In this document: in pieces, positions 18,147-47,963 of the stretch
Layout: each line of letters opens with the position of its first letter
Numbering within the stretch: position 1 is the first letter of the stretch
Assembly (NCBI GenBank): GCA_023663235.1
Contig: JAMPHW010000002.1
Coordinates: 82,680-130,642 of the forward strand
Origin: Ruminococcus sp.
GTDB lineage: Bacteria > Bacillota_I > Bacilli_A > RF39 > UBA660
DNA: 47,963 bases
Direction: 5' to 3'
Program-made: the position numbers and the translations under genes
Notes under the pieces: generated by a model
Told to the model about the DNA's origin: nothing
The model's input: the letters and a program-made list of their open reading frames with translations, nothing else
Database searches by the model: none

Positions 18147-18183
18147 AAGTTCAATCTAGCATATATATTTATAAATGTCAAAA

Positions 18184-18281
18184 TACAGATTTATTAAAAT
18201 CTGTAGGAATTTTATACAGAAACACCAAAATCTGCTTAGCAGAAATTACTAAATCTGTATGTTTTTAGACTAAAATCTGTA
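18184..18281. repeat. Cluster of AAATCTG(T/C)A repeats and hairpins
   Basis: AAATCTGTA or a close variant occurs at 18197, 18228, 18251 and 18273, and inverted at 18184-18192. The first pair forms a perfect 9-bp hairpin TACAGATTT / AAATCTGTA with a 4-nt loop; TCTGC-TTA-GCAGA (18231-18243) forms another. The spacing is 22-31 bp. It is too short and irregular for a CRISPR array. It lies just beyond the terminator of the surface-type gene. Confidence 0.5.
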
Positions 18282-18297
18282 AAATTCAAAATTTTTT

Positions 18298-18333: not shown

Positions 18334-19740
18334 TTACATAACTACTTTGTAGGGATTAGATATAGTTCCATCACCTGTTAATTCAACATCTGAACGAATA
18401 TTAATTACAGGTCTAATACCTCGTTTGATAAGTGCGACATGACTACGCCAACCATAATCTATATAACCACTTTGATAAATGGCATATACCGCTGCTCCTA
18501 GGTCGTTAAAGCGTGCTGGAGTTATTGTCCAATAAGTACTATTTGTATATAAATAATTATTTGTTGTTGTAGAAGCACCGCTAAATACCATACCTGCATA
18601 ACTAGCTTCATCTGCAGTTATCAATCCAACCGGATTATCTAATGCTTTATTTCCTTGTTTCGTTAAGGAATATATATTATTATTTTTATAAGAATATAAA
18701 TCATTAATAATATTACAATTATATTTTGGAGTACCATTTATTAATCTAATTCTACTTGCATAAACTATTGGTTTAGGAACAATACTTCCACTTGTTCCAT
18801 CAATTTGTGTGTCGCTTATATTAAATTGTCTGTCTCCACAGAAACCAGCATTTAAATCTATTTTATCAAAATAATTACTACCTTGTTTTATATTAGAATT
18901 TATAAACCAATCATCTAAGCTTTTTTTAACTTCACTATCATTTTTATTTTCATGAGTTGTTTCATAAGAGCTAGATTTAGTCGTTCCGTACATATATCCT
19001 ACATAAGCATTATCGTCACCTAGATAATTAAAAGTACTTGTTCCTATTTGAGTTTCTTCTCCTGTCGCTTGGGGTTCTAATTTGTTGCCATTTTCATCTT
19101 CTGTTCTTCCTTGGTATATCATTCTAATGGAGCCATTGCCATTTATTCTTATTATTCGCCAATAGTATCCGCCAAACTCTACCCAGTTATCAGTTGGATT
19201 TCCTGCATAATAATATGTTACTCCATCATCATCACTATCGGCATATATCTTTCCCGTTGTTTCTCCGCTTATTACTTGGTTAAATGTTCCTTTTTTTCTA
19301 TGTGTTACTTCTGTTATATGACTTAATATATACTTAGCTGCACTTGTCGTTGCTTCTCTTCTTTTAAAATATAATATACATTTTGATGATTTACTTAATT
19401 CCGATATGATATGTTCTCCATATTTATTGGTTTCTAATATGACACTTGTATCTTTATTATTTTTATCTGTTCCTTTATAGCAATAACTATCTTTTGTTAA
19501 GACATATCCTTTTCCTGGCATCGTTGTTTCTTTAGATTGTTCTACTCCATCTATATACATGGCTACTATATTTAAGTCATATGGAATAGATATTACTTTA
19601 CCTTCAGTTAAGGGAATAGATGCTGTCATTCTATAATTTGCTTTACTTCCTATAAAAGTAACAGTTACAGTAAGTACAACTACCAATATTAAACCACACA
19701 AAAAATACTTTTTGCTATTCTTATTTCTTTCAAATTTCAT
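18334..19740 (-). CDS. Membrane-anchored surface-type protein, copy A
   Basis: 468 residues. A short basic N-terminus and one hydrophobic segment (about 12-32) are followed by a large extracytoplasmic region. The C-terminal two thirds carry W-V-E-F-G-G-Y-Y-W-R-I-I-R-I, an F-C-G-D-R block, P-V-G-L-I-T-A-D-E-A, and G-I-R-P-V-I-N-I-R-S-D-V, ending in S-N-P-Y-K-V. The G-(I/V)-R-P-V pattern recalls DUF6273/C-type-lectin-like surface domains. Its first 30 residues and leader DNA are nearly identical to copy B at 46521-47927, while the middle differs strongly. Function unknown; probably adhesion or host-facing. Confidence 0.65.
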   Translation of the reverse strand: MKFERNKNSKKYFLCGLILVVVLTVTVTFIGSKANYRMTASIPLTEGKVISIPYDLNIVAMYIDGVEQSKETTMPGKGYVLTKDSYCYKGTDKNNKDTSVILETNKYGEHIISELSKSSKCILYFKRREATTSAAKYILSHITEVTHRKKGTFNQVISGETTGKIYADSDDDGVTYYYAGNPTDNWVEFGGYYWRIIRINGNGSIRMIYQGRTEDENGNKLEPQATGEETQIGTSTFNYLGDDNAYVGYMYGTTKSSSYETTHENKNDSEVKKSLDDWFINSNIKQGSNYFDKIDLNAGFCGDRQFNISDTQIDGTSGSIVPKPIVYASRIRLINGTPKYNCNIINDLYSYKNNNIYSLTKQGNKALDNPVGLITADEASYAGMVFSGASTTTNNYLYTNSTYWTITPARFNDLGAAVYAIYQSGYIDYGWRSHVALIKRGIRPVINIRSDVELTGDGTISNPYKVVM

Positions 19741-19745
19741 TTTTT

Positions 19746-19774
19746 ATTTGCTCCTTTAATAAGCAAATCGCGAT
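19746..19774 (-). promoter_or_regulatory. Leader hairpin enclosing the ribosome site, copy A
   Basis: On the minus strand ATTTGC (19768-19763) can pair with GCAAAT (19751-19746), leaving the AAAGGA of the ribosome site in the loop. It is preceded by the palindrome ATCGCGAT (19774-19767). The same arrangement, with a different loop length, precedes copy B, which supports a functional element. Confidence 0.5.
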
Positions 19775-19803
19775 TATTTTAGAAATTTCTAGCTTATACA
19801 CTA

Positions 19804-19832
19804 ATTATAATATCTCATATAATAAAAGTCAA
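19804..19832 (-). promoter_or_regulatory. Consensus promoter of surface-type gene A
   Basis: TTGACT (19832-19827), 17-bp spacer, TATAAT (19809-19804) on the minus strand. Confidence 0.8.
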
Positions 19833-46520: not shown

Positions 46521-47927
46521 TCATGAAACTACTTTGTAGGGATTAGATTGTGTTCCATTACCAGTAAATGTGACATCAGAACGTAGATTAATTACGGGTC
46601 TTATGCCAAAATTATTGGAAACTCTATTATTGCCTAAAGAACCTGTATTAGATATAGTAAATACTTGGGCAAAACCATTATTGTCACCATAACGTCTTGA
46701 TGTCATAGTATAATAAGTTTGATTAGTTGTTAAATAATTATCTTTTGAGTTTAATATTCCTGCATAAATTGCCTCGTCGGCTGTTATTAATCCTACTGGA
46801 TTTACTAAAACCTTATTTCCATAAATTGATTTATTATATGTAAAATAATCAGCAGTATTTTGGCAATTGAATATAGGTTTCATATTTGAAGAATGCGTAC
46901 CACTAGGAAATAATCTTATGTAAGCTCCATAATATGTTAAAGTGCTTCCCATGCCTCCATTCCCATTGTTTAAGTAATTACTAGTAGTTGGAGTTCTGTC
47001 ATCACAGAAACCAACATTTATATCTATTTTTTCAAAATATTCAGTACTTTGTTTAATATTTGAGTTCTCAAACCAATTATCTAATGCTATTTTGGCATTG
47101 CTGCTATTAGTATTTTCATGAGTTGCTTCATAAGTCGTAGAATTTGGGGTTCCATACATAAAACCAACATAGGCATTATCATTATACATTTCGTTAAATT
47201 TGCTGGTTCCTATTTGGGTTTCTTCACCTGTTTTTTGGGGTTCTAACCTATTTCCACCTTCATCTTCTGTTTTTCCTTGGTAGATTAATCTAATTGAACC
47301 ATCGCCATTTATTCTTATTATTCTCCAATAGTATCCACCAAATTCTACCCAATTATCGAGTGGATTTCCTGCAAAATAATAGGTTGTTCCATATTCATCA
47401 TCGCCTTCATATATTACCCCTATTGTTGTATTTTCTATAATTTGATTAAAAGTTCCTTCTTCTCTTGTTTTTCTTCCTGTATAATGCGTTTCTAATAATT
47501 CGCTCATTGTTTTAGCTGTACTTGTATCTTTATCTAAATAGATGAAACATTTATCTCCTTTACTTATTCCTCTAAAGGTATGTACTCCTCCTATTGTTTC
47601 TAATATTGCATTATTATCTTTATTTTCTTTTTTACAATTACTTCCTTTACAACAGTATGTTTCTTCTTTATTTATTGTATATCCAGTAGGGATTGTAATA
47701 TCTTTAGATAATTCTTGATAATTACCATCACCTTCATTAATATATATAGCTATAACATTTATATCATAAGGACTAGATACTACTTTTCCTTCGGTTAAAG
47801 AAATTGATGCTGTCATTCGATAATTAGCTTTTGATGTTATAAAAGTAACTGTTACAGTAAGTACTACTACCAATATTAGGCCACACAAAAAATACTTTTT
47901 GCTATTCTTATTTCTTTCAAATTTCAT
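46521..47927 (-). CDS. Membrane-anchored surface-type protein, copy B
   Basis: 468 residues, the same length as copy A. The N-terminal 30 residues are nearly identical to copy A (basic start, hydrophobic helix at about 12-30), and W-V-E-F-G-G-Y-Y-W-R-I-I-R-I, G-E-E-T-Q-I-G-T-S, P-V-G-L-I-T-A-D-E-A and G-I-R-P-V-I-N-L-R-S-D-V are shared. The region between residues 55 and 130 and the loops around 300-340 and 385-430 differ strongly. It carries extra cysteines (C-C-K-G-S-N-C). Function unknown; extracytoplasmic location inferred. Confidence 0.65.
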   Translation of the reverse strand: MKFERNKNSKKYFLCGLILVVVLTVTVTFITSKANYRMTASISLTEGKVVSSPYDINVIAIYINEGDGNYQELSKDITIPTGYTINKEETYCCKGSNCKKENKDNNAILETIGGVHTFRGISKGDKCFIYLDKDTSTAKTMSELLETHYTGRKTREEGTFNQIIENTTIGVIYEGDDEYGTTYYFAGNPLDNWVEFGGYYWRIIRINGDGSIRLIYQGKTEDEGGNRLEPQKTGEETQIGTSKFNEMYNDNAYVGFMYGTPNSTTYEATHENTNSSNAKIALDNWFENSNIKQSTEYFEKIDINVGFCDDRTPTTSNYLNNGNGGMGSTLTYYGAYIRLFPSGTHSSNMKPIFNCQNTADYFTYNKSIYGNKVLVNPVGLITADEAIYAGILNSKDNYLTTNQTYYTMTSRRYGDNNGFAQVFTISNTGSLGNNRVSNNFGIRPVINLRSDVTFTGNGTQSNPYKVVS

Positions 47928-47932
47928 TTTTT

Positions 47933-47963
47933 ATTTGCTCCTTAAAAATAAGCAAATCGCGAT
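47933..47963 (-). promoter_or_regulatory. Leader hairpin enclosing the ribosome site, copy B (cut by window end)
   Basis: Same arrangement as in copy A: ATTTGC (47957-47952) / GCAAAT (47938-47933) around the ribosome site, and the palindrome ATCGCGAT (47963-47956) at the very end of the window. The promoter lies outside. Confidence 0.5.

Follow-up and report, generated by a model that had tools for sequence, protein, structure and literature searches.

The hypervariable loop of a large family of surface-type proteins is probably, across a whole bacterial genus, the variable repeat (VR) of a diversity-generating retroelement (DGR) in which the reverse-transcriptase (RT) operon is unlinked and the templates (TRs) are many separate genes; copies A and B, the two family members described below, would then be frozen variants. 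Both lie in the window, by which we mean the whole 47 963-nucleotide stretch of DNA that was analysed (C22:82680–130642 of the source genome, labelled G000). The G000 assembly is MAG-like and comprises 1.50 Mb in 53 contigs, with a completeness of 93.7 and a contamination of 2.18. All genomes compared are drafts with gaps at the family repeats, and each species is represented by one genome. What is read from these sequences is the family itself, its mosaicism, the operon, the TR genes, adenine-specific differences between TR and VR, and covariation in the TR RNA.

Copies A and B in the window

Copy A (18334–19740, minus strand) and copy B (46521–47927, minus strand) are ORFs of 468 amino acids each. 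Both proteins have a basic N-terminus, one membrane helix (residues 9–31 in the model of A) and then an ectodomain, which in A is C-type-lectin-like. An earlier note on this DNA had claimed that the two copies share a nearly identical start, a leader hairpin and a palindrome and that they diverge internally. Both points are borne out: residues 1–49 differ at two positions only (G31T and P43S), the only leader difference from the palindrome AATCGCGATT to the ATG is two extra bases before the SD in B, and the complete proteins are 57–58% identical. The shared repeats D1–D3 show 76–86% DNA identity.

The 5' leader of A, TATAAGCTAGAAATTTCTAAAATAATCGCGATTTGCTTATTAAAGGAGCAAATAAAAA (19741–19798, minus strand), contains the palindrome (19766–19775, unstranded), the arms of which match while varying between copies. 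A hairpin of the form ATTTGC...GCAAAT spans the ribosome site (19746–19768, minus strand; SD at 19751–19756), and in silico folding of ATTTGCTT/GAGCAAAT gives a minimum free energy of about −8 kcal/mol. The promoter of A was assigned by eye to 19804–19832 (minus strand), with the −35 element TTGACT at 19827–19832, a 17 nt spacer and the −10 element TATAAT at 19804–19809, which we take to be a consensus arrangement. The leader of B is readable over 47928–47963 (minus strand). An N-run further upstream in the genome begins at the palindrome and makes the B promoter unreadable. Just downstream of A, at 18180–18290 of the window, lies an ∼110 bp dispersed repeat built from CAGATTT/AAATCTG palindromes, which is also present in four other fetched loci, in one of them twice.

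Sequence searches with A and B against Pfam, NCBIfam and the PDB returned nothing above cut-off. The AlphaFold model of A, based on a 40-row alignment, has a pLDDT of 83.8 and a pTM of 0.75. It matches part of the IgA peptidase structure of Thomasclavelia ramosa (9qa6) with a Z-score of 13.0 and an r.m.s.d. of 3.4 over 187 aligned positions; the next structures among the matches listed are mostly C-type lectins (Z-scores of 3.5–4.8). Foldseek against the PDB gave one row below 0.001, and DUF6273 proteins account for several of the better hits in BFVD (E values of 1.9e-3 and weaker); they are alike by this structural match although A and B reach no Pfam family cut-off. As modelled, the divergent loop of A and B is placed in the C-type-lectin fold. 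It comprises residues 409–442 of 468 in A (18415–18516, minus strand), where other family members have their DGR variable repeat, and residues 411–440 in B (46608–46697, minus strand). It is thus encoded close to the 3' terminus of a gene with a C-type-lectin fold, as in DGR targets. In C-type-lectin folds, the residues that DGRs vary sit where the hypervariable loop of this family is found.

A mosaic family of paralogs

The earlier note spoke of two copies; counted over the genome, A and B are two of about 80 loci of one family. With A as the query, 85 matches in G000 merge into 80 distinct ORFs or fragments. Together with one further truncated copy, the family takes up ∼91 kb, or 6.1% of the assembly. 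By a crude rule 41 of the 80 are full copies with a start, 30 of them with a complete leader, and many of the remaining copies are cut by N-runs or contig ends. The family is present in all 18 other genomes of the genus that were sampled (8–68 matches each), and matches were found in none of the 12 genomes sampled from other families. Near-full-length copies within G000 are 46–74% identical to A, compared with 36–45% for the near-full-length copies listed from other species, a difference that we read as concerted evolution or species-specific expansion. In scans of genome contigs, A alone found no relative and the family alignment gave 569. The named relatives include Candidatus Caccenecus avistercoris, which NCBI places in Bacilli incertae sedis, and uncultured Bacilli and Mycoplasmatota MAGs. 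One G000 gene (L064; C11, ∼239.7–242.1 kb) joins two family units into a protein of 801 amino acids, and its loop is the most clearly TR-derived one in G000.

Mosaicism was assessed in 42 of the 80 G000 ORFs (readable start, no N, 1200–1600 nt, L081 excluded). Along these clean full copies the median DNA identity falls from 0.86 (residues 1–26) to 0.42 (residues 417–442) and returns to 0.73 at the C-terminus. Exact tracts of 343 and 227 nt are common to gene pairs that are otherwise 65–68% identical. Among the 823 pairs below 70% identity, the longest identical run is at least 40 nt in 26, against 0–2 with permuted codon columns, and PHI gives a z of −6.2 with 0 of 1000 permutations as low; draft assembly of repeats may distort this signal, and the 227 nt tract lies well inside both of its genes. 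The suggestion of the earlier note that recombination produces antigenic variation therefore stands as far as a multi-copy surface-type family with intragenomic mosaicism is concerned, and is otherwise only partly supported. The DGR variable-repeat nature of the exposed loop, which was absent from that first reading, is a stronger diversifying mechanism than recombination alone. Phase variation, put forward in the same place, is not supported: no invertible or promoter-less arrangement was seen among the copies read, which include the 30 full copies with a complete leader and 27 readable promoters. In most copies with an incomplete 5' part the sequence stops at an N-run or a contig end, and on this ground a silent-cassette model was dropped.

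The shared leader

The leader 16-mer AAGCTAGAAATTTCTA has 49 perfect copies in G000 and 54 with up to two mismatches (backwards control, 2 and 0), and the downstream gene is a family gene at every checked locus where it can be read. A promoter of the form TTGAC-(about 17)-TATAAT precedes the family leaders in G000 and is readable in 27 of the 30 full copies with a complete leader. For the analysis of base pairing, 27 distinct N-free leaders with the full motif were taken from the 53 copies with a readable start. All 17 named pairs hold in each of the 27, and changes on both sides of a pair are confined to the palindrome helix. Here, the five pairs hold throughout, with five pair types at the centre and three at one arm, and the changes on both sides amount to 22 cells (0 of 500 shuffles). 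The palindrome core switches between GC, CG, TG, AT and TA yet stays self-complementary, allowing G–U, in 27 of 27 leaders. Its central bases are adjacent and unable to pair in one hairpin, so that intermolecular pairing and a dyad at the DNA level are both possible.

Helices 1 and 2 hardly vary and thus provide no test of the leader structure, and the arm GCAAAT of the SD hairpin is intact in 21 of the 27 leaders. The idea of the earlier note that the hairpin suggests a shared control is consistent with the 17 pairs, but covariation is limited to the palindrome helix and the SD-hairpin arm is not intact in every copy. A search of six leader loci against Rfam gave 0 matches. Other species have different leaders, several of them with palindromes or hairpins of their own.

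A DGR-type operon

Two reverse transcriptases were found in G000. The RT on contig C50 has the motif LPIGNMTSQ and is encoded downstream of bAvd-like and MutS-I-like genes. The SQ that replaces SP in this motif is a DGR hallmark. Profile matches in the operon are to RVT_1 (1.1e-18), bAvd (PF22296; 1.2e-9), MutS_I (3.4e-7, above its cut-off) and DivGenRetAVD (4.4e-9); the Avd-like protein scores 39 bits against a Pfam cut-off of 40 and 36.6 bits against an NCBIfam cut-off of 80. The msl–bAvd–RT set is called a DGR-type operon from the RT motif and the partner genes, the libraries used being without a DGR-RT model.

RT matches are present in 31 of the 36 genomes of the genus. In 17 of these the match is full-length at 76–85% identity, far above the identity of the family proteins, and in several genomes the RT frame is interrupted by stops. 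Avd was found at 19 of 20 RT loci, and in two of the 20 loci scanned (G004 and G039) the msl–avd–RT operon comes directly after the end of a family gene. The operon has a leader of its own that is conserved across species, TTATCTTAGTTATGATGGGCAGTATTATCTTAACTAC...GTGGGAGGG (L258:6845–7012 and the RT loci of other genomes). The second RT of G000 (C17:3871–4422, L256) was set aside as a DGR candidate; it is retron Ec107-like (7.4e-118) and adjoins a YchF-like GTPase gene, named by eye.

Template RNA genes

The loops of the family genes beside the operon in G004 and G039 are strikingly GC-rich for AT-rich genomes. A strict loop motif is passed by 26 genes, only one of which is from G000, and in the 25 genes of other species the fraction of A at third codon positions is 0.10 in the loop against 0.45 elsewhere. 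These 25 genes have the loop skeleton NNC GTG TTC NNT GTG NNT TCG NNT GGC NNC CTC in common. When an all-adenine version of this skeleton was used as a template query, 28 of the 36 genus genomes gave matches within three mismatches (backwards control, 0), and the matches that were fetched are mostly short non-coding units outside family genes. Four candidates (L284, L303, L309 and L310) were rejected as templates; they are VRs that read on into the family C-terminus.

Each unit consists of a −10 box, GGTTAATCT, a spacer, the TR of about 100 nt running from TGTCTCCG to GTGCGYCCA, and a 3' domain that ends in TTAGGATACAAGATTAACC. Of 68 TR genes, 53 have an exact TATAAT no more than 25 nt upstream (four of 68 in the control), in most cases 9–12 nt ahead of the start. 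Two alignments were made, with 67 and 63 of the 75 extracted units. The 3' domain contains an ATATCC/GGATA helix, a hairpin and a stem that closes the 5' GGTTAATCT on the 3' AGATTAACC, and nine of its 13 pairs show changes on both sides among 67 sequences. The outer stem co-varies by eye, uncounted, as in GGTTAATCT/AGATTAACC, GGCTAATCT/AGATTAGCC and GGTCAATCT/AGATTGACC.

A covariance model of the TR finds 19 units in G000 and 1–25 per genome in 32 of the 36 genus genomes, four being without a TR. RT and TR are both absent in three genomes and one alone is absent in three (p = 0.005, relatedness not corrected); the exceptions are G015 and G046, with TR genes and no RT match, and G044, where the reverse holds. 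Across the order the model matches in nine of 193 genomes. Three of the nine belong to two further genera of the same taxonomic family, and these three also carry RT relatives of 52–53% identity on other contigs. Their TR-like units (L358, L359, L362 and L363) have the same outer architecture and a different template skeleton, and so probably another target set, and their occurrence suggests that the layout is older than the genus. Searched against Rfam, the TR loci gave a single sub-threshold match (22.4 bits, cut-off 90).

Tandem arrays with a spacing of ∼300 bp contain 12 TR units in G014 (L360) and five in G016 (L361). In G000, 18 of 21 TR positions (the 19 covariance-model matches and two seen by eye) have a family gene no more than 1.5 kb away, while random placement gives a mean of 4.5 and never reached 18 in 2000 trials. 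None was found within about 2.5 kb of the RT, and the sole TR on contig C50 lies about 41 kb away from the RT, at the distant end of that contig. The location of the TRs outside the RT cassette sets the system apart as a DGR variant. The idea that TRs mutate each other was dropped as too weak: in the TR core the deviation is 0.227 at A and 0.10–0.12 at C, G and T, but the flanks show 0.21 against 0.13–0.19.

Adenine-specific differences and the status of A and B

The VRs were picked by the strict motif, which favours DGR-like ones, and the statistics refer to the best pairs over a score limit. With the best TR from the same genome and a score of at least 100, nine of 15 VRs qualify; 92 of 244 adenines are mismatched against 56 of 675 other bases (p = 7e-24), the latter divided into 27 of 236 C, 16 of 211 G and 13 of 228 T. 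Pooled over species, 23 of 42 VRs exceed the limit, and the counts are 301 of 682 for A against 169 of 1716 for the other bases (p = 3e-74). In the pair L148/L306 of G004, 15 of 31 adenines and three of 73 other bases are mismatched, and in the pair L064/L008 of G000 all five differences within about the first 70 aligned bases are at adenines. Mismatches concentrated in this way at adenines are the signature of DGR mutagenesis. With 8% non-adenine mismatches in the best same-genome pairs, no perfect current TR/VR pair is seen.

Against 20 TRs of their own genome and 67 pooled TRs, A and B reach best scores of 22–28, which is within the null (maximum 38), and 14–15 of the 80 G000 ORFs match a template above the null. 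Since A and B are without a TR match at non-adenine positions, they are classed as family members and not as current targets. In 52 unmatched copies with complete C-termini, the majority residue has a frequency of 0.51 at template non-asparagine positions and of 0.22 at asparagine positions (p = 3e-4). As the scaffold is kept and the match to template DNA is missing, the preferred reading is that A and B are frozen members, which would have retained the former and lost the latter. Alternatively, they may come from templates that are now lost, or may never have been targets.

Proposed mechanism and alternatives

In the mechanism that we propose, the VR would be the hypervariable loop between the conserved motifs YWTMSP and GVRPVIN. 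An unlinked chromosomal operon would provide the MutS-I-like protein, the Avd-like protein and the DGR-type RT, which would introduce errors at adenines as it copies small template RNAs; the VR of family genes would then be replaced by the cDNA. The templates would be many separate RNA genes, near family genes or in tandem arrays, with a predicted transcript that begins at GGTTAATC and covers the TR and the 3' domain. Duplication and gene conversion would spread and reshuffle the diversified products, and members such as A and B, with a VR that matches no template DNA, would be frozen variants. We infer that the TR genes are transcribed and that the RT uses them in trans and is active today; A and B would once have been targets, and the family proteins presumably act as exposed receptors or antigens. 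The system is probably a many-template, many-target DGR, in which one RT–Avd–Msl set works with up to 25 promoter-bearing templates (in arrays of up to 12) on a lectin-like repertoire of ∼6% of the genome, while gene conversion and frozen copies archive past variants.

Several features of the family could also be accounted for by an ordinary birth and death of paralogs under diversifying selection, with the DGR as an old inactive relic. Most G000 copies match no template, RT frames are broken in some genomes and the best TR/VR pairs contain non-adenine mismatches. However, the RT is 76–85% identical in 17 genomes compared with about 40% for the family proteins, the TR RNA is structured with compensatory changes and a −10 box, and the adenine excess is still sharp, which makes a relic unlikely. 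It is quite unlikely that antigenic variation is driven by recombination alone, with segments swapped by gene conversion and a DGR that concerns other members only. The mosaic tracts and PHI, the missing template match of A and B and the higher identity within than between genomes agree with it, but variability in the family peaks (residues 417–442, median DNA identity 0.42) exactly at the position of the VR, unmatched copies retain the template scaffold, and gene conversion reshuffles and leaves adenine-specific differences unexplained.

The leader could act as a switch, its 5' structure or palindrome deciding which copies are expressed or translated by phase variation or co-regulation. It is near-invariant while the genes diverge, the palindrome pairs are preserved in all 27 leaders despite changes on both sides (22 cells, 0 of 500 shuffles), and other species have leaders of their own, several with palindromes or hairpins. 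As the explanation of the family this is nevertheless unlikely: no inverted or promoter-less copies were seen among those read, no more than 21 of the 27 leaders have an intact SD-hairpin arm, and helices 1 and 2 are near-invariant and uninformative, related copies inflating the pair counts. Co-regulation through the leader is compatible with the DGR explanation and fits alongside it. Finally, repeats that were collapsed or joined into chimeras in a draft MAG might have produced the shared leader and the mosaics, and many copies do stop at N-runs or contig ends within the shared 5' part. Such an artefact is very improbable given the 30 full copies with a complete leader across many contigs, the family in 18 of 18 other genus genomes and the 227 nt tract well inside both genes.

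Comparison with known systems

The vlhA, Vsa and Vsp families of Mycoplasma likewise comprise many paralogs for surface proteins, are carried by small AT-rich genomes and recombine between copies. They switch a single expressed copy, or use repeat tracts or inversions. In the present family, by contrast, most readable copies have a promoter of their own, and across the genus the loop derives from a DGR.

The DGR of Bordetella phage BPP-1 is the classical example of its kind. Classical cassettes, as described in the excerpts of a survey (PMC3521204), have a 2–4 kb core with at most four VRs, sought within 5 kb on either side of the RT. They resemble the present system in the RT, the Avd-like protein, the adenine-specific TR/VR pairs and a VR located 3'-terminally in a C-type-lectin-fold gene, and also in the VR-less paralogs found alongside diversified ones; by comparison with that account, the TR genes are here many, separate, promoter-bearing and away from the RT, and the family numbers tens (PMC3521204). 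In cyanobacteria, 76 of 121 diversified genes are remote targets, and these genome-scattered CLec genes are likewise tied to the DGR by VR/TR homology, but the TR is described in the DGR locus and scattered TR genes do not appear in the excerpts of that report (PMC7517822). The VRs of Thiohalocapsa PB-PSB1 are diversified in trans by a TR and RT elsewhere; its nine DGR loci, however, stem from complete, transposon-driven cassettes with the TR beside the RT, and the excerpted text mentions no TR library (PMC10907252). Zeta crAss-like phage DGRs also have several TRs in one genome, but in a phage cassette with a tail-fibre target and, in the excerpts, no chromosomal TR array (PMC12386605).

Precedents thus exist for DGRs, for CLec targets at remote sites, for VR-less paralogs and for the presence of more than one TR. 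Separate promoter-bearing TR genes across a chromosome, serving one RT and tens of targets, were not found in excerpts of the open-licence PMC literature, including PMC10907252, PMC8867640, PMC12386605, PMC3521204, PMC7517822 and PMC10868615, and an earlier report is possible. A finder of the DiGReF type, as excerpted, confines its search for TR and VR to about 5 kb around the RT (PMC3521204) and could therefore miss a system with dispersed TRs.

If the proposed mechanism is true, an uncultured gut lineage with genomes of ∼1–1.5 Mb would devote ∼6% of its DNA to a template-directed surface repertoire, which could be reprogrammed by the gain or loss of small template genes. Testable questions are what determines the choice of template by a single RT, how the templates themselves are spared from mutation, and whether the repertoire has a role in attachment, in evading immunity or in escaping phages. 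For the TR RNA, which is structured, the Rfam search made gave no match above its cut-off.

Further promoter types in the family

A second class of family promoter has the element TTTTGTCGAA...AATGAAA upstream of the gene. It is seen in G000 at L017, L061 and L058 and at loci of G004, G005, G009, G011, G015, G017 and G018. The element resembles what we take to be a Spo0A box and Spo0A_C is encoded in G000, and a Spo0A-linked subset of family copies is possible. In single family copies of other species (L158, L188, L192, L117, L154 and L146), differing inverted repeats are visible by eye between or around the −35 and −10 elements, as if these promoters were tied to different repressors.
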